Of a stretch of 64,000 nt of DNA, positions 3,107-12,746 are shown in pieces (within the stretch, counting starts at the first letter, position 1; each line of letters starts with the position of its first letter). The translations under genes and the position numbers were made by a program. The notes under the pieces were generated by a model. That model was not told the DNA's origin. It made no database searches and saw only the letters and a program-made list of their open reading frames with translations. The stretch comes from Immundisolibacterales bacterium (GTDB lineage: Bacteria > Pseudomonadota > Gammaproteobacteria > HK1), in NCBI GenBank assembly GCA_026712715.1, contig JAPOPW010000025.1, forward strand, positions 1 through 64,000, in the 5' to 3' direction.

Positions 3107-4525
3107 TCAGAACTGACGCACGAAGCGAAGCTCGGCGGAGTTCCTGCGGTAGTCGTGGAGCTGCGCGTTGGTGTCCCGGGCCTCGCTCGTCACCGCGAGC
3201 TCGGGGCTGAAGCCGTAAAGGGTGAAGCGGCGGTGGTGGACCGAGGCGCTGAGGGTCCTCGTCCGGTCCTCGCGAAACTCTCCCGGGGGGGTGTGGGGGA
3301 TCCACTCCCCCTCGTAGTCCGTCCAGCGAAGCTGCGCGCTCGCCCCGAGGGAGAATCCCTTCGGCAGTGACTTCCGGACGCCTACTCGCACCCAGCGGCT
3401 CGTGTTGCGGTTGCGCACGAACGCGGGTCGCTCGGCGCCGTACCCGAGCGCCCCGTCGACGCGCACGGTCGGGGTCGCCACCCAGTTCCCGCTCAGCGAG
3501 AGGTCACGGACCGGACCGTCGAGGTTCCGGTTCACCCGGTACCGGCGGTCGTGCCACGAGGCATGGCCGGTGACGGACAACCGACGGGTGAGACGCCGGC
3601 GCGCCTCGAAGCGGCCCCCAAGAGCGTCGTAGTCCGCGCTCCCGTGAACGAGGCTTCGACGCGCGCTCCCGAGCACGCTCAAGTCCGTCCGCGCCCCCAC
3701 GAGCCAGCGCGGGCCCGCGTGCAAGCCGAGGTTGGTCTGGTCGTACCGAGCCGCCGCGTACTCGCGCCGCGAGAGATCCCCACCGGCGCGGAGCCGGACC
3801 CGCTCCCCCAACGGATGCTGGTACTCGCCGCCCGTCCAGAGCGAAAGCCCCAACCCCGAGGTGGTGAGCTCCTCCTGATCGCGACGGAACGAGAGTGGGA
3901 CGCCACCGACGTGGATCTGGATGAACCGCTCGTCCGACGCGGCCCCGATGTTGCTGTCCGGGGCAAGCGCCGCCCCGAAGTAGACGCTCCAGCGCTTGCG
4001 GGCGCGGATCCGGATGAGGAAGCGTTGCACGTTCGCGACCACGGCCGGGGGAAGGTCCCCGGCGAGGACCTGTTCGAAGTGCCGGCGGGCGAGCGAGTCC
4101 TTGCCCTTGAGAAAGAAGGCCCGCGCCATCTCCAGGCGGGCGCGAACCAGGCTGGGGTCCTGCACCAGCATGGCATGCAGGGCTTCGATGGCCGCGTCCA
4201 GCAGCGCGTCCCGCACCTCGTCGGACACGCCGGGTTGCCCGGATGCTTCGATTCCCGCAAGACCGACGAGGAAGAGCGCGTCGGGTTGGTGCGGGTGGCG
4301 CTCGACGACCGGCCGCAGGACCTTCAACGCCTCCAGAAACCGACCCTCCCTTATCAGCGAGCGCGCCCGGTCAACCCCGGCTGGACCAGTCTGCCCGGCC
4401 GCGGCGGGCGTTTGCGAGGACGGTGGCTGCTGCCCCTTCGCCGGTCCGGCCAGCACCAGGGCGGCGGCAACCGCCAGGACACCGGGGATGACGAGACGCC
4501 TCTTTCGGCAATGTTGACCACTCAT
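3107..4525 (-). CDS. Surface lipoprotein assembly modifier (Slam, DUF560) outer-membrane protein
   Basis: A 472-residue protein expected in the outer membrane, where Slam proteins move lipoproteins such as TbpB to the cell surface. The ATG at 4525 gives a basic then hydrophobic signal peptide (MSGQHCRKRRLVIPGVLAV...) ending near AKGQQ; a TTG six codons upstream is also open. Residues 50-165 are TPR-like helices (LIREGRFLEALKVLRPVV, PDALFLVGLAGIEASG, ARAFFLKGKDSLARRHFEQVL). From about residue 175 the chain is alternating amphipathic beta strands of a barrel, ending in Phe as outer-membrane proteins do. It sits downstream of two lipoprotein genes on the same strand, the usual Slam-plus-substrate arrangement. 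Family assignment is by pattern recognition and is fairly secure. Confidence 0.82.
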   Translation of the reverse strand: MSGQHCRKRRLVIPGVLAVAAALVLAGPAKGQQPPSSQTPAAAGQTGPAGVDRARSLIREGRFLEALKVLRPVVERHPHQPDALFLVGLAGIEASGQPGVSDEVRDALLDAAIEALHAMLVQDPSLVRARLEMARAFFLKGKDSLARRHFEQVLAGDLPPAVVANVQRFLIRIRARKRWSVYFGAALAPDSNIGAASDERFIQIHVGGVPLSFRRDQEELTTSGLGLSLWTGGEYQHPLGERVRLRAGGDLSRREYAAARYDQTNLGLHAGPRWLVGARTDLSVLGSARRSLVHGSADYDALGGRFEARRRLTRRLSVTGHASWHDRRYRVNRNLDGPVRDLSLSGNWVATPTVRVDGALGYGAERPAFVRNRNTSRWVRVGVRKSLPKGFSLGASAQLRWTDYEGEWIPHTPPGEFREDRTRTLSASVHHRRFTLYGFSPELAVTSEARDTNAQLHDYRRNSAELRFVRQF

Positions 4526-4707
4526 TCGTGCTGGCTTCCTCAAATCGCAACATCCGCAATCGGATCATTCACAGCAGGGCTCGGAAGCGGGTGCATGACA
4601 ACGCAAGCCCAACTCCGGCGGTACCCGCCGCCCGCATGCCGCCCGGCCCGCGCCTTCGGCGTGGACCCGCTCTAAACCCCCGTCCGTTTCCGGCCCGAAA
4701 CGGCCGG

Positions 4708-6048
4708 CTACTTGCCGGCGCCGAAGGCGCCCGCGACATGCGCGCCGGGGAAGTGAACGTCGAACCGGCCGGTGACATGGCTCGGCCGCGCGTTGGTCTC
4801 GGCTCCGTCCGTGCCGTGAAACCGCCCCTCCCAGGTGCCTTCCCCACGGCTGCCGGGGCCGACCTCTCCTCGGGTCTCTCCCGCGAAGGACGGCTCCCCG
4901 GTCGTCAAACCGGCCGACCCGAGCGTCACGCGCCAGCCCTCCATCGACCTTCCCGCCCCGTCCCGGAACGACTCGACCTCGCCCGTCACCTCCCCCGCGT
5001 CCAGGGCGCCGAAGAAGTTGGCCGTCAGCACCGCCTCCGCCGTGAACTCGCCCGCGCTCCCCGCCGTGACCCGGCCCCCGGAGACGTCCACCGTCACCCA
5101 GACCCCCGCCGCCGCGCCGTGGTAGGTCGCCGACCCTTCCATTGCCGCGCCGACGTTTCCCGCACCCGCAGGGAACCCCGCGCCACCCGAAAAGCTCTGG
5201 AAGCCGTACGAGCCGTCGTCCTCGTTCAGCCACCAGCCGAAGTACGCGTGCTCGTAGTCCGGGATCTGCACCATCGCGGTGCTGTCCGGTCCGAACACCC
5301 AGGCTCCGTCCATCGCCGTCGGCGCGCCACGGTCGTCGAGCGTCACCGAGCAGACCTCACCCGAGCAGCGGTATCTTCCCGACCCGCCCGCGAACGTGCC
5401 GGTGAACTCGAGTCCCGCATTCGCGCCGGTTCCTTCCGCCGGGTAGGTGATCGAGCCATCCGGGGGCGCGAATGCGAGAGAGGTCGACCGGACGACCGGG
5501 AACCAGCTCGTCTCAATGGCCAACCCGGGCGCTAGAACCGTCTCCCCGGTCAACCCGCTCACCTCACGCAGACGGTTGAGGTTGTCCGGGGTGAAGGCCG
5601 CCGCTTCCGGCTCGGCGACGTCGGTATACACGACCAGGTGCTCCGTCTCCTCGCCACGCCGGAACCGAACCCCGGTCCAGCCGGCGATTGCCGCGGGCCC
5701 TTCGTCCTGCTCCGCGAACCCGCCGGAGCGGGCAATCCCGTCCCGGGGCGTCCCGGACTCCGTCACCCCGACGGTGACCGTCGTGCCGTCGTGGCTCGCC
5801 ATCACCGTGGGGGCGACCGCATATTCCGCATCATCGAACGCGCCGTGACCGTCCGTTGCTCTGGCCGCCTCGAGCGCCGCCGACAGGGCGACCGATCTCT
5901 CCGTCGCCGCCGTGTCCTGCTCCGGATCCGGGTTTGGCTCTGGCTCCGGGACCGCTCCACCCCCACCGCCGTCGCCGCCGCAGGCCACAAGGCCAAGCGT
6001 GAGCGCTGCCGCACCAACGGCCGCAGTCAGGTTCCTGAACAAAGGCAT
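4708..6048 (-). CDS. Lipoprotein with TbpB-like C-terminal beta-barrel; candidate Slam substrate
   Basis: A 446-residue lipoprotein. The ATG at 6048 (GAGGGG about 10 bp upstream) opens a signal peptide whose lipobox is LVAC, Cys at residue 23, followed by a Gly run and a Pro/Glu/Asp tether as in surface-exposed lipoproteins. The remainder is beta-rich. The C-terminal part contains strands separated by Gly and Asp turns (TAEAVLTANFFGALDAGEV, then a final HVTGRFDVHFPGAHVAGAF), which resemble the eight-stranded barrel of transferrin-binding-protein-B-like proteins. The same closing motif ends the larger lipoprotein upstream. It precedes the Slam gene by about 180 bp. The ligand is unknown; TbpB-like barrels in this setting may bind metal carriers, haem or host proteins. 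Confidence 0.75.
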   Translation of the reverse strand: MPLFRNLTAAVGAAALTLGLVACGGDGGGGGAVPEPEPNPDPEQDTAATERSVALSAALEAARATDGHGAFDDAEYAVAPTVMASHDGTTVTVGVTESGTPRDGIARSGGFAEQDEGPAAIAGWTGVRFRRGEETEHLVVYTDVAEPEAAAFTPDNLNRLREVSGLTGETVLAPGLAIETSWFPVVRSTSLAFAPPDGSITYPAEGTGANAGLEFTGTFAGGSGRYRCSGEVCSVTLDDRGAPTAMDGAWVFGPDSTAMVQIPDYEHAYFGWWLNEDDGSYGFQSFSGGAGFPAGAGNVGAAMEGSATYHGAAAGVWVTVDVSGGRVTAGSAGEFTAEAVLTANFFGALDAGEVTGEVESFRDGAGRSMEGWRVTLGSAGLTTGEPSFAGETRGEVGPGSRGEGTWEGRFHGTDGAETNARPSHVTGRFDVHFPGAHVAGAFGAGK

Positions 6049-6368
6049 GTCACCGACCCCCTCAAGAAGACGTCCGCTACCGGGCTCGGGTTTCGCGCAC
6101 CCGGAATCGTACCGTTCCATGGGCACAAACGCACCGACCGCGAGAGGACCAACGCTGGCTCCGGACGACCAATCAAGACCGCCGCGCCGAGCACGCGAAA
6201 CGCAGGATGCCGGACCCGTTCAATTCGCCCGGCAAGCTCCGTGATGTCGTCGCGGGTCTGCATAGTCTCCTCGAGCCATGCCAGCCGCTCGCAGGTCGGA
6301 TCCTAACACCGCGGCCCCAGTTGGCCATGGACTTCCCGAAGGTTTGCCCGATCGCCCGTTCGGGCAGG

Positions 6369-6387
6369 CCACGTACCCGGTACGTGG
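6369..6387. promoter_or_regulatory. Perfect 19-bp palindrome, possible operator
   Basis: Two 9-bp arms, CCACGTACC and GGTACGTGG, flank a single C. It lies about 320 bp upstream of the 446-residue lipoprotein start in a spacer with no gene. Its length and symmetry suit a dimeric repressor of the TetR or similar type; it does not resemble a Fur or Zur box. No function is shown by the sequence alone. Confidence 0.4.
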
Positions 6388-6531
6388 ACAACGGCTCGAG
6401 CTTTGCGCCACGAATCCCTCCGGAAGCGCCTCCGTCGCAACGGCGTTTTCGTTCTTCCGAACTTTCGCCGCCGTCGGGATGAAAAGGGACTTGCCCTCCA
6501 AGCCTTCGATCAGGCTATACACACATGAAGA

Positions 6532-6560
6532 GGGCGGCGACCGATGCGGGGTCGCCGCCC
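6532..6560 (-). terminator. Second hairpin of a tandem terminator
   Basis: An 11-bp GC-rich stem (6532-6542 with 6550-6560) and a 7-nt loop, just beyond the T run of the first terminator in the minus-strand direction. What follows is TCTTC, a weak U tract, so this one alone is a poor intrinsic terminator but may act as a backup. Confidence 0.5.
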
Positions 6561-6561
6561 G

Positions 6562-6596
6562 AAAAAAAAGGAAGGGCGGCACGGGGCCGCCCTTCC
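6562..6596 (-). terminator. Intrinsic terminator of the large lipoprotein gene
   Basis: Reading the minus strand, an 11-bp perfect stem (6586-6596 with 6570-6580) with a 5-nt loop is followed directly by eight T residues. It lies 38 bp after the stop codon of the 905-residue lipoprotein gene. This is a textbook rho-independent terminator and indicates that the large lipoprotein is transcribed separately from the smaller lipoprotein and Slam genes. Confidence 0.92.
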
Positions 6597-6633
6597 TACG
6601 AATGGGGCGTTCACCCCAGTTGGGAGGGACTAC

Positions 6634-9351
6634 TCAATCCCGGGTGGCGTAGGCACCCGCGGCATGCCCATCAGTGAAGTGGGCTTCAAAGTTGCCGAAG
6701 AAGCCCGTCGGACGCTGGTTCTGAAGAGCGGTGTTGGGATCGTCATCGTGATCGATCGGTGCCGGACCAAAGCCCTGTGTTGACCAGTCGCCGGCTTGGC
6801 CAGATCCCTTCGCCACACCCAAAGTGCTCCCATCAACGTCAGTAAAGGTGGCGGTGGCAGCGAGCGCCCTCTCCCGAAGTGCTACCGACCAGTCGGGGTC
6901 GGTATTCATACTGCTCGCACTCTGGAAGTTCGAGACCGTCCCCTTCAGCGTGGGTGACGCCCCGAACCTCGCCGTGAGAGAGACGTCCGCTGTGAACGCG
7001 CCGGAGTAGATCGTCACCTGCTTGCCATCGTCATCGAAGGTCTTGTGTATGGACATGCCTGCAGCATCGCCAGAGTAGGTCGCCGTCTCGAACTCGGTCT
7101 CGCTGGCTGTTGCCACACCAAGCGCAAGGCTAGCCGTGTTGGCAGCGCTGGTAGCGTAGGTGTGGATGGTGACATCTCCCGTGCCATCGGGATTCGCCGT
7201 GGTAAGCCAGTGGCCCCAGCTGACGAAGCCGGTGTCTTGCACATACCCCGTCCCGTCCGCGTCCGCGATGTAGACGTTGGTCGTCGAAGTCGGACTGAAG
7301 TACCAACCACCGACCAGATCTCCGTCAGCATTCACCGAGCAACCGTCCGTGCCCCCTAGGCAGAACACCCTGCCCGGAATGCCCTTGTAGTTGATGTCGG
7401 TCTCGCCGTCGGGCGTTGCGTAAGCATCTGAGTACGCTCCGTCAGTCCCGCCTGTGGCACTCAGAGCAGACCCATCAGTGTCAAAGTCCATCGCCTCGCC
7501 ACTGATTGGCGCCACCAGTCGGACCGCGTCGTCAGTACCGATCCTCTCCCTCGCGACGTTGGCTTCGCCGACGATCATGGACCAGGTCATGCCGCTGCTG
7601 TCGTTGTCATAGAAGGTGCGCTCCATGAGGGCGGGGGCGTCGGCAGGCAGTTCGCTTACGGCGTCGTAGTGAGTCACCCTCCGCGCGGTGCCGTCGTGGT
7701 CAGCCACTGCGGTGTCGGGAACCGTGGGAAGCAGCGCCCCGCCGACGGCCATGGCTACACCCTCGCCGACATCAGTGGCGGTTTTCAGGTCATCCTTGTC
7801 CGTACCGGTGACCATCTCCACGTCCGCCTTCAGATTCACACCATCTTGGTTGACGGTGTCGTCGGCGTTCTTGGCGGTATCGATGGCCTTGGTGGCAGCG
7901 ATTTGAACTTCCGCCGCTGCAATGGCCGCATCAAGCGCCGCGACCACTTCGGTCTTCCCAGTGGTTCCGTCCGCGATGGCCTCGGCTTCGGTCTTGGCGG
8001 TCTCCGCGTCAGTCTTCGCCTTCTCGGCGTTCATGACGGCCTGGTCCACGGCGTCGTCGGCATCCAGCACCTTCTGCGCGTTCATCTGGGCGTCGTAGGA
8101 ATCGCCCTTGACACTCGCGACATCAAGCATGTCCGAGTACTTGGCCGCGTCCTTCACGGCCTGCGCCGCATCCGCGCCCGCGTCCGTGGCGGCCTTGGTC
8201 GCGTCGCTTGCGTCCTGATGCAGGTTGACGATCTGCTGGGAAGTTTCTCCCGCCTTGCGAATGGCAACCTGTTCCTTGACGCTTCCGAGGTCCACCTCGG
8301 CCGCCGCGATCTTGCCGTTCAGCTCCAACACTTCATCGGCGGTCAGCGTCGTTCCATCCATGACCGCCATCTTCGCCGCTGCGACCTTGTTCTCCGCGTC
8401 GGTGACTTCCGCATCGGTCGAGTTGATGTCCAGAGCGGCAATTGCCATCTCCGCCGCGGTAACCGCGCTGTTGGCTTCCGCAAGCTGATCCCTGTGCGTC
8501 CGGTAGCCGGTAATCGCCAACTCGATGGTACCGAGGTCCACCTTTGCGATTGCGATCTTGCCGTTCAGATCGGCAATCTCGGCCGACGTCAGCATCAACC
8601 CCGCAGCAACCATCGCCTCCGCAGTCGCAATTGCGGTCTTCGCCGCGGCGACCTCGTCGTCGGTGGACATGGCCGTCAGCGCGTCAACCGCATCCGTCGC
8701 CATGCCGACAGCTCCAGTGGCAGCCATGAGTTGGCCGGCATGCGTCCGGAAGTTCATGGCGGTCGTCGTCGCGGTAGCGAGGTCCATTTTGGCGGTCGCG
8801 ATGTCGCCATTCAGCATGGCCACCTCGTCAGTCGTCAGCATGGTCCCAGCCGTAACTGCCATCTCCGCCGCATCGATCGCGTCCTGCGCCGCCTGGAGGT
8901 CCGCATCGGTGGACATGGCGGTCAGGCCGCCAACCGCCATTTCCGCGTCGTCGACGGCGTCGTTGGCAGCCATGAGCTGCGCGGAATGCGTACGGTAGTT
9001 GGAGATGGTCATATTGGCCGTGTCGAGGGACATCTGGACGGTCGCGATTTCGCCTCTGAGCTCGAGCACTTCACTTCCCGACAGCAGCAGCACGCCGGAA
9101 AGGGCCGTGTTCGCAGCCGTGATTGCCATCTCCGCGGCGGCGACATCTTCGTCCGTGGACATGCCGGTCAATCCGCCGACAGCCGTTTCCGCGGCTTCAA
9201 TGGCACTGGCGACCATCATGCGCTCTTCTTCGGCCGTTGGGGGTGGGGGGTCCACCGGGCCGGCCGTTCCGCCACCTCCGCAGCCTGCCATGGCCAGAGC
9301 CAAGAACAAGACGGAGGCGGTCTTACCCAATTTGACTAGGTCAAAGTTCAT
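6634..9351 (-). CDS. Large repeat-bearing lipoprotein with TbpB-like C-terminal barrel; candidate Slam substrate
   Basis: A 905-residue lipoprotein. The ATG at 9351 has a GAGGAGAG site about 9 bp upstream; the signal peptide ends in AMAGC, Cys at residue 24, followed by Gly and Pro runs. Residues about 45-363 contain four copies of an 83-residue helical repeat with recurring YRTHxxQL, ALxxMSTDxEV and LNGKIAxAKVDLG elements; the first copy lacks the YRTH part. Residues 364-570 are Ala/Asp/Lys-rich and likely coiled coil. The final 320 residues are beta-rich and end in GNFEAHFTDGHAAGAYATRD, matching the closing strand of the smaller lipoprotein. The layout suggests a rod holding a barrel away from the surface. 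It has its own promoter candidate and a strong terminator. Confidence 0.78.
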   Translation of the reverse strand: MNFDLVKLGKTASVLFLALAMAGCGGGGTAGPVDPPPPTAEEERMMVASAIEAAETAVGGLTGMSTDEDVAAAEMAITAANTALSGVLLLSGSEVLELRGEIATVQMSLDTANMTISNYRTHSAQLMAANDAVDDAEMAVGGLTAMSTDADLQAAQDAIDAAEMAVTAGTMLTTDEVAMLNGDIATAKMDLATATTTAMNFRTHAGQLMAATGAVGMATDAVDALTAMSTDDEVAAAKTAIATAEAMVAAGLMLTSAEIADLNGKIAIAKVDLGTIELAITGYRTHRDQLAEANSAVTAAEMAIAALDINSTDAEVTDAENKVAAAKMAVMDGTTLTADEVLELNGKIAAAEVDLGSVKEQVAIRKAGETSQQIVNLHQDASDATKAATDAGADAAQAVKDAAKYSDMLDVASVKGDSYDAQMNAQKVLDADDAVDQAVMNAEKAKTDAETAKTEAEAIADGTTGKTEVVAALDAAIAAAEVQIAATKAIDTAKNADDTVNQDGVNLKADVEMVTGTDKDDLKTATDVGEGVAMAVGGALLPTVPDTAVADHDGTARRVTHYDAVSELPADAPALMERTFYDNDSSGMTWSMIVGEANVARERIGTDDAVRLVAPISGEAMDFDTDGSALSATGGTDGAYSDAYATPDGETDINYKGIPGRVFCLGGTDGCSVNADGDLVGGWYFSPTSTTNVYIADADGTGYVQDTGFVSWGHWLTTANPDGTGDVTIHTYATSAANTASLALGVATASETEFETATYSGDAAGMSIHKTFDDDGKQVTIYSGAFTADVSLTARFGASPTLKGTVSNFQSASSMNTDPDWSVALRERALAATATFTDVDGSTLGVAKGSGQAGDWSTQGFGPAPIDHDDDPNTALQNQRPTGFFGNFEAHFTDGHAAGAYATRD

Positions 9352-11673: not shown

Positions 11674-12204
11674 TCAGCGAGGTCCAGGCGGTTCGAGCAA
11701 TTCCTCCAGCGCATACAGCGTCTTGTGCGGGAGTCTTTCCCGCGGGTAGTAGCGCGTGACGACCTCGAGCGCCTTGCGATGGTCGGTGAGGTTGAGGTAG
11801 CGCAGGAGAAAACGTACGTCGTCCTCGTCATGGAATTCCGCGCCGAGGCGCATTGCGAGGCACTTCATCGCAAGCAGGTACTCCGGGCTTGCGGTCAACA
11901 CTCGCAGGTTGGAGAACTCCAGGAACGGATGGAAATCCTCCTTGTCGCTCAAGTACCCCTTGACCGCGTCATTGAGCCAGTCGCCCGGCAGCCCGGACGC
12001 GGCGGCCACCGCCCGTGCGGCCGCGCGCACCTCGTTCGCAGGACGAAAGTACGCGTCGATGTCACGGGTCGAAGGACGTGCGTCGAAGACGAGGCACATG
12101 ACCGCACCGCCCACCACGTACACCTCCCCGGTGATTGATCGGCGGGCGATCTCGTCGTTCAATCGCTCGAACAGGCGTTCGATGTCGTGCTTGGAGAATT
12201 CCAC
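11674..12204 (-). CDS. DUF6036-type nucleotidyltransferase, second gene of a toxin-antitoxin-like pair
   Basis: A 176-residue protein with a polymerase-beta-type nucleotidyltransferase core: VYVVGGAVMCLVF supplies the Gly-Gly loop and TRDIDAYF the Asp-x-Asp metal pair, followed by a helical part and YLLAMKCLAMRLG. The GTG at 12204 is chosen because it gives the N-terminus VEFSKHDIERLFERLN and shares its G with the TAG stop of the upstream gene; the longer open frame is a shadow of that gene. Proteins of this kind are often partners in toxin-antitoxin or abortive-infection pairs and may nucleotidylate RNA or proteins. Which member is toxic cannot be read from the sequence. Confidence 0.75.
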   Translation of the reverse strand: MEFSKHDIERLFERLNDEIARRSITGEVYVVGGAVMCLVFDARPSTRDIDAYFRPANEVRAAARAVAAASGLPGDWLNDAVKGYLSDKEDFHPFLEFSNLRVLTASPEYLLAMKCLAMRLGAEFHDEDDVRFLLRYLNLTDHRKALEVVTRYYPRERLPHKTLYALEELLEPPGPR

Positions 12205-12707
12205 TACACCCGCTGGCCGACGCTGCTGTCGATGAACAGGTTTCGGCGCCGGAACGGCGGCGGCGAGTGCGTGAGGAGATACAGTCGCAGGCTCTTCAGG
12301 GACGAAGCGAACCAGGGCCAATCGAGCGCCTCGACGTCGATCGTCCACCGGGGCGGTCGCACTCCCTTGATCGCGGCCGCCTGCTCGACCATCGCGGCCA
12401 GGTAGTTCGCCTCGAACGCGGGGAGTCGAGCTTCCGGAGCGTAGCGCACCGCCCGCACGAACTCGCTTCCGGTCAACCGGTGGAACCGGTCCTGAAGCTC
12501 GGCGAACGTGAACCGCCGCGCCTCCGGGCGCGACGCCAGCTCCCGGCACAGCGCCTGAAACTCGCGCTCGACAGGCGCAAGCACCTGATGCAGCACCCAC
12601 TTGGATACGTCCATTCCCGCACTTTCCGCTCGCGCTCCAATGAGCGCCTTGTCCTCCGCACTGATGCGGATCTGAAGCTGACGGGACTTGCTCACGCGAA
12701 CCACCAT
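12204..12707 (-). CDS. Ribbon-helix-helix-like DNA-binding partner of the nucleotidyltransferase
   Basis: A 167-residue protein whose first 50 residues (SRQLQIRISAEDKALIGARA, then MDVSKWVLHQVL) look like a ribbon-helix-helix or DUF1778/MobC-like DNA-binding segment; the rest is helical and unassigned. It overlaps the nucleotidyltransferase gene by one base (TAGTG), so the two are coupled. A 23-bp dyad lies 17 bp before the ATG at 12707 and contains a consensus TTGACA. With 16-bp spacing the matching -10 (TATGGT) covers the ATG itself, so the message may be leaderless and begin at a nearby GTG (12698 or 12695). The likely role is antitoxin and autorepressor. Confidence 0.6.
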   Translation of the reverse strand: MVVRVSKSRQLQIRISAEDKALIGARAESAGMDVSKWVLHQVLAPVEREFQALCRELASRPEARRFTFAELQDRFHRLTGSEFVRAVRYAPEARLPAFEANYLAAMVEQAAAIKGVRPPRWTIDVEALDWPWFASSLKSLRLYLLTHSPPPFRRRNLFIDSSVGQRV

Positions 12708-12723
12708 AGCCGCCTGGCGCCGT

Positions 12724-12746
12724 TTGTCAATACGTTGTACTGACAA
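12724..12746 (-). promoter_or_regulatory. 23-bp dyad operator containing a consensus -35 for the RHH/nucleotidyltransferase pair
   Basis: The element reads TTGTCA, one base, TAC, three bases, GTA, one base, TGACAA, so 9 of 11 positions in each arm are symmetric. On the minus strand its inner end supplies TTGACA, with TATGGT 16 bp further on. Occupancy by a dimeric ribbon-helix-helix protein would block RNA polymerase, the standard autorepression of toxin-antitoxin operons. Confidence 0.7.

Follow-up and report, generated by a model that had tools for sequence, protein, structure and literature searches.

A Slam (type 11 secretion) exporter locus and its two predicted cargo lipoproteins, which share a handle-barrel head

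The window, by which we mean the whole stretch of 64,000 nucleotides that was analyzed, comes from a relative of marine-sponge symbionts. We consider it likely that the Slam (type 11 secretion) locus in it comprises an exporter and, as its cargo, the two lipoproteins SLP1 and SLP2. Based on their predicted structures, both proteins almost certainly have the fold of Slam cargo. Slam-dependent display at the cell surface is very likely for SLP1, given its fold, the family-wide linkage to Slam genes and its adjacency to the exporter gene, and quite likely for SLP2, for which we draw on the fold and the family-wide linkage. Sequence comparisons and models together suggest that the two proteins belong to a new, hitherto unnamed family of Slam-dependent surface lipoproteins.

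The exporter and the arrangement of the genes

The SLP2, SLP1 and Slam genes are arranged head to tail in that order, all on the minus strand (Table 1), and a TTGAGG-type Shine-Dalgarno sequence precedes the ATG of each open reading frame. This arrangement agrees with the original prediction of an exporter gene downstream of two lipoprotein genes, and the open reading frames were found at the positions it had given. The SLP1 gene is directly upstream of the Slam gene with a gap of 182 bases, and SLP1 lies between the SLP2 and Slam genes, which are not adjacent. Because there is a strong intrinsic terminator behind it, the SLP2 gene is probably its own transcription unit; the number of terminator sites in the region was four, versus a mean of 4.0 in shuffled sequences, and the SLP2 site has by far the longest stem. 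The SLP2 gene also differs in GC content, 0.63 (0.76 at third positions) versus 0.71 (0.86 at third positions) for the SLP1 and Slam genes, and given this lower value it was perhaps acquired. The third-position GC of parA/parB, 0.94–0.96, is above that of all three genes.

Table 1. Features of the Slam locus, with positions in the window
Feature	Coordinates	Strand	Basis
SLP2, predicted surface lipoprotein, 905 aa	6634..9351	-	lipobox MAGC (C24), homology to SLP1, AlphaFold2
SLP2 rod, four 82-residue repeats, aa 45-372	8236..9219	-	self-identity, helix spacing, spectrin-repeat matches
SLP2 further helical segment, aa 373-498	7858..8235	-	AlphaFold2 model
SLP2 head, handle and barrel, about aa 531-905	6637..7761	-	structure matches
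SLP2 tail motif GNFEAHFTDGHAAGAY	6649..6696	-	sequence
Intrinsic terminator behind SLP2	6569..6597	-	12-pair stem, T-rich tail
SLP1, predicted surface lipoprotein, 446 aa	4708..6048	-	lipobox LVAC (C23), AlphaFold2
SLP1 handle or pedestal, about aa 71-303	5140..5838	-	structure alignments start at aa 58-91
SLP1 C-terminal eight-strand barrel, about aa 304-446	4711..5139	-	DSSP strands 304-323 ... 436-445
SLP1 tail motif GRFDVHFPGAHVAGAF, last barrel hairpin	4723..4770	-	strands 424-433, 436-445
Slam, type 11 secretion outer-membrane protein, 472 aa, Sec signal peptide	3107..4525	-	SlipAM PF04575
Slam N-terminal TPR region, aa 52-157	4055..4372	-	TPR_14, TPR_19
Slam SlipAM (DUF560) membrane barrel, aa 179-472	3110..3991	-	SlipAM profile match

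The exporter had been described as a TPR-plus-barrel protein of the Slam type, and the search against the DUF560 profile bore this out, with a match to SlipAM (PF04575) at 8.6e-24 that covered model positions 1–288 of 288 and scored 85 bits against a cut-off of 22. Its TPR region was identified by TPR_14 (30.3 bits, cut-off 23.5) and TPR_19 (30.4 bits, cut-off 25), while the score with the specific TPR_Slam model, 16.3 bits, was below the cut-off of 35.2. There are two SlipAM genes in the genome. The second, on contig C30 (G000:C30:22166-22897; locus L033, 12167-15332, minus strand), belongs to another group (29% identity to the Slam of the window), and its neighbor encodes a lipoprotein in which two TbpB_B_D domains (8.7e-21) and an FHBP_C match were identified. 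Because the C30 Slam is of that other group and is located beside the protein with two TbpB_B_D domains, we designate these, by sequence, as one classical Slam-cargo pair and, in the window, a divergent pair.

Other open reading frames of the window, all on the minus strand, included one of 353 aa at 1908-2969, an odd fusion that begins like a transposase helix-turn-helix (0.0074), the rest resembling a peptidoglycan-binding protein (1.1e-13). At 1089-1729 a PIN-domain toxin (4.3e-13) was identified with an overlapping Phd/YefM-type antitoxin frame, and at 11677-12746 a DUF6036/AbiEii-like nucleotidyltransferase overlaps a NikA/TacA1-like ribbon-helix-helix frame, perhaps a second toxin-antitoxin pair.

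Predicted structures of the two lipoproteins

That both proteins are lipoproteins, as originally predicted, could be read directly from their lipoboxes, and in each the lipobox Cys is followed by Gly at +2 (LVAC-G in SLP1, MAGC-G in SLP2). The C-terminal motif GxFxxHFxxxHxAGAx that had been noticed in the pair is present as GRFDVHFPGAHVAGAF in SLP1 and GNFEAHFTDGHAAGAY in SLP2, within about 290 homologous C-terminal residues. A single comparison of the two proteins aligned 286 residues at 31% identity (E 2e-12), and a search of the genome with a family profile that contained SLP1 and not SLP2 found the two at 4e-104 and 2e-33, respectively. Given this alignment and the recovery of both proteins by the profile, we judge from the sequences that the shared motif is no chance match. 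In SLP1, residues H432 and H437 of the motif are predicted to be opposed across the last barrel hairpin, as argued from the strand register, and are possibly a metal site; within the SLP1 clade, the final 36 residues include three invariant His and a fourth that is nearly invariant. The pair is kept in most of that clade and in the subclade of SLP2, and is replaced in most of the wider family. We considered the tail as a metal motif that defines the SLP1–SLP2 pair and rejected this, since most family members lack these His.

The AlphaFold2 model of SLP1, derived from an alignment of 36 family members, had a mean pLDDT of 79 (approximately 90 in the barrel) and a pTM of 0.76, and consists of a handle followed by the barrel. 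Within the handle, the Cys pair C228 and C233 is invariant in the 36 sequences. The best match among solved structures was hemophilin HphA (8gm3_A; Z 15.2, rmsd 4.3, 192 residues aligned), followed by fHbp (Z 14.6), the TbpB C-lobe (13.6), NHBA (12.6) and HpuA (12.4). HphA, fHbp, TbpB and HpuA are known Slam cargo, and most of the matches to Slam cargo aligned over both handle and barrel. The original prediction of a TbpB-type barrel therefore held: a handle and barrel as in the TbpB C-lobe were apparent in the predicted structure, whose lack of such a barrel had been named as grounds for abandoning the prediction, but neither SLP1 nor SLP2 matched Pfam TbpB_B_D (PF01298) at E<=1. No relevant Pfam or NCBIfam model matched either protein, and when PDB sequences were searched with the family profile, all matches were attributable to chance and most fell within the helical stalk. 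Relatives in the head family gave weak TbpB_B_D matches (E 0.0037–0.045; 14.7–18.2 bits versus a cut-off of 26), and family members and Slam-linked relatives do reach TbpB_B_D or FHBP_C by sequence. SLP1 and SLP2 differ from the two-lobed TbpB and LbpB in that each has one lobe, and their contig has no plug match.

For SLP2, the AlphaFold2 model had a pLDDT of 70 and a pTM of 0.37, and that of the head is of low confidence before residue 640. The large lipoprotein had been predicted to be a repeat stalk with a barrel head, and both parts were recovered. Sequence and model agree in pointing to a true repeat in the rod: self-identity at an offset of 82 is 42% over 295 positions, versus a mean of 11% for offsets 60–109, and the predicted long helices start at residues 92, 174, 256 and 338, that is, every 82 residues. 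Each of the four repeats is composed of a short helix, another short helix and a long helix, and reads like AEMAVGGLTAMSTDADLQAAQDAI...LNGDIATAKMDL...FRTHAGQL. The modeled head matched NHBA (Z 11.9), fHbp (11.8), HphA (10.4) and the TbpB C-lobe (10.3). The modeled N-terminal half matched spectrin repeats at Z 11–12 (11.7), values that may reflect only a common helical-bundle arrangement, and kinship of the rod with eukaryotic spectrin was rejected as Z-scores of this size are common for helical bundles. Searches for the stalk repeat in 54 related genomes and in 397 further genomes from the phylum were negative. It also had no sequence match in the other family members that were fetched and no Pfam match, and a PDB sequence search with the stalk alone found nothing.

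Distribution of the head family and its linkage to Slam

A scan of 84,980 species genomes for the head family used two short patterns from five closer sequences, and therefore finds close relatives only. It identified 27 loci in 15 named MAGs, labeled as Alpha- and Gammaproteobacteria, Nitrospinae, Bryobacterales (Acidobacteriota), Chloroflexi and Saccharibacteria; the last of these labels may result from binning errors. All 15 MAGs apparently come from sponges, an origin that is documented for seven of them and assigned by bin names only for the other eight. The SB0662 bins are a set that we take to be from sponges. Ircinia sponges are the source of the jk18x bins (PMC9531527), and the sponge Aplysina aerophoba is that of bin107 (PMC5649159); these bins make up the seven documented MAGs. 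Judging from names, CAR would fit Carteriospongia and RHO would fit Rhopaloeides, each of them sampled in PMC8163846, and p16x60 fits the Ircinia set. In even samples, the head-family profile had no match in 368 further genomes from the class and matched two of 397 further genomes from the phylum, weakly and over the barrel part only, and no relatives of SLP1 were found in 72,556 plasmids.

Six of the 27 loci that were retrieved with the head alone (L066, L074, L078, L079, L085 and L089) have a Slam gene directly beside the head gene on the same strand, and searches with Slam added three more pairs (L100, L101 and L102). Besides the window, at least nine loci pair the head family with a Slam. 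The full-length Slams of these pairs are one group, 49–56% identical to the Slam of the window. At L101 (6872-8327) and L079 (9441-10174) the Slam gene beside the head gene is split over overlapping frames, owing either to breakage or to sequencing errors. Many other family members in the relatives are located away from any Slam. Copy number can be high: a related genome (G010) gave 27 matches, counted as 19 head-family genes, for two Slams. All of these copies share the handle-barrel head, the invariant Cys pair and an FGWW-type core. Some of the G010 genes (L005-L014, L061-L064, L094-L099) are in tandem, and the copy closest to SLP1 is not beside a Slam. The regions N-terminal to the head, many of them rich in Ala, are between about 80 and 770 residues long, and stalk length varies freely.

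In the family tree, SLP1 of the window groups with copies from alphaproteobacterial MAGs, to which it is up to 75% identical, and stands apart from the copy in its genome's own family (61% identical), whereas SLP2 is on a very long branch. The placement of SLP1 fits exchange between symbionts, although it may also stem from misbinning. We speculate, with some doubt, that a multi-copy system, in which one or two Slams display many lipoproteins with one conserved head and interchangeable stalks, is shared and exchanged among sponge symbionts from different phyla and serves to recognize or hold the host. If so, a set of T11SS cargo would be tied to one of the oldest animal–microbe symbioses; a literature search found no paper that joins T11SS and sponges.

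Proposed function and comparison with known systems

In the mechanism that we propose, SLP1 and SLP2 would be made with a Sec/SPII signal and lipidated at C23 and C24, respectively. Gly instead of Asp at +2 of a lipoprotein leads to the outer membrane via Lol, and based on their sequences and this established pathway both proteins would be sorted there. The C-terminal handle-barrel domain would be kept unfolded in the periplasm and recognized by the Slam, which, in keeping with the known mechanism (PMC9090332), would pass the head through the outer membrane. Folding would take place on the outer side, and the lipid anchor would end up in the outer leaflet. SLP1 would display its head near the membrane and SLP2 would hold a similar head away from it on the rod of four three-helix repeats, with the stalks setting the reach of the heads.

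As the main role of SLP1 and SLP2 we tentatively favor adhesion or host interaction, ranked ahead of heme or metal capture, and the target of attachment or recognition would be a host or community surface, such as the sponge matrix, glycans or other cells. Attachment appears the likeliest role because of the analogy with NilB–NilC of Xenorhabdus, the varied stalks and the sponge distribution. NilB–NilC, a Slam-type exporter and a lipoprotein, is a T11SS pair for host colonization (PMC9100927); it is our favored functional model (host colonization and not metal uptake), likened by role, and its host is a nematode.

An alternative is that SLP1 and SLP2, in the manner of HphA or TbpB, depend on Slam for display and capture heme or metal to feed a TonB receptor encoded elsewhere. 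This would account for the best structural match of SLP1 being HphA, albeit tied with fHbp, and for the cross-strand tail His pair in most of the SLP1 clade and the SLP2 subclade, but that pair is replaced in most of the wider family. The original prediction had noted that no TonB receptor is beside the lipoproteins, and this proved correct: there was no plug match on contig C2, and a search for the TonB plug domain identified two genes in the 5.05 Mb genome, on contigs C60 and C4. A TonB receptor is present in 120 of 185 published Slam clusters (PMC5449769). Furthermore, HphA binds heme by two His in an N-terminal clamp (PMC8560813), whereas the handle of the SLP1 clade is without an invariant His (H86 and H137 vary), as judged by conservation within the clade. 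Given the few TonB plugs, none of them on C2, and this handle, piracy of metal or heme is less likely than attachment, and we regard it as unlikely.

It is improbable that, of the two, this Slam exports SLP1 alone, with SLP2 a chance neighbor that faces the periplasm or is exported otherwise. The terminator, the lower GC content and the very long branch of SLP2 would be in keeping with such a neighbor; however, its head is homologous to that of SLP1 (2e-12) and folds like known cargo, and distance from a Slam is also seen for many family members in relatives and for known Neisseria cargo (PMC5449769). We also considered whether the C-terminal domain, instead of being a soluble surface barrel, is embedded in the outer membrane as an Ail/OmpX-type barrel, given that Ail and OmpX tie with the cargo over the SLP1 barrel alone (residues 302-446, Z 12.6–14.1). 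These matches cover only the barrel, whereas those of Slam cargo include the handle, and the sequence matches to TbpB_B_D and FHBP_C in the family and its Slam-linked relatives also count against it. Bam substrates usually end in an aromatic residue, but SLP1 ends ...GAFGAGK, without one, and it has a lipobox and a Gly-rich linker. A porin-like membrane barrel was rejected on these grounds as highly improbable.

Previous work on T11SS rested on pathogens, animal commensals and one marine Rhodobacteraceae cluster that rarely had barrel cargo (PMC12282271). If export holds for SLP1 and SLP2, then Pfam-based surveys miss Slam cargo, and the family would offer a direct way to test surface proteins that sponge symbionts aim at their host.

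Among the known systems, Neisseria Slam1–TbpB (PMC5449769, PMC8406197, PMC9090332) has the same TPR and SlipAM exporter, the same gene adjacency and the same type of lipoprotein with a handle and a C-terminal eight-strand barrel. In contrast, the heads reported here are below Pfam detection, have a single lobe and no nearby TonB receptor, and are found mostly in sponge-associated bacteria, with many copies per genome in a relative. HphA with HsmA (PMC8560813) provides, in a tie with fHbp, the closest solved fold of SLP1, although here no handle His is invariant in the SLP1 clade and there is no adjoining TonB receptor. The Pls–TepS system of Haemophilus parahaemolyticus (PMC12282271), for which export of the Pls-like cargo by its T11SS OMP was shown in E. 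coli, has the same helical-repeat N-terminus, pedestal and C-terminal barrel in a lipoprotein. SLP2 is likewise helical before the barrel, over residues 45-498, with period-82 repeats at residues 45-372; however, the Pls-like repeats are EEARKA helices related to staphylococcal Pls, a motif that is absent from the SLP2 sequence, and those of SLP2 are 82-residue three-helix repeats. Since such helical-repeat cargo was already described (PMC12282271), the original claim of a new architecture was only partly right, and what stands of it is the novelty of the repeat sequence and of the head family. Slam loci with several cargo genes are also known, in nine clusters (PMC5449769), and with the helical-repeat barrel cargo (PMC12282271) they make the locus one of a kind already known. 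New in it are the heads that escape Pfam, the 82-residue repeat of the rod, for which no match was found, the number of copies and the occurrence of the family in sponges.
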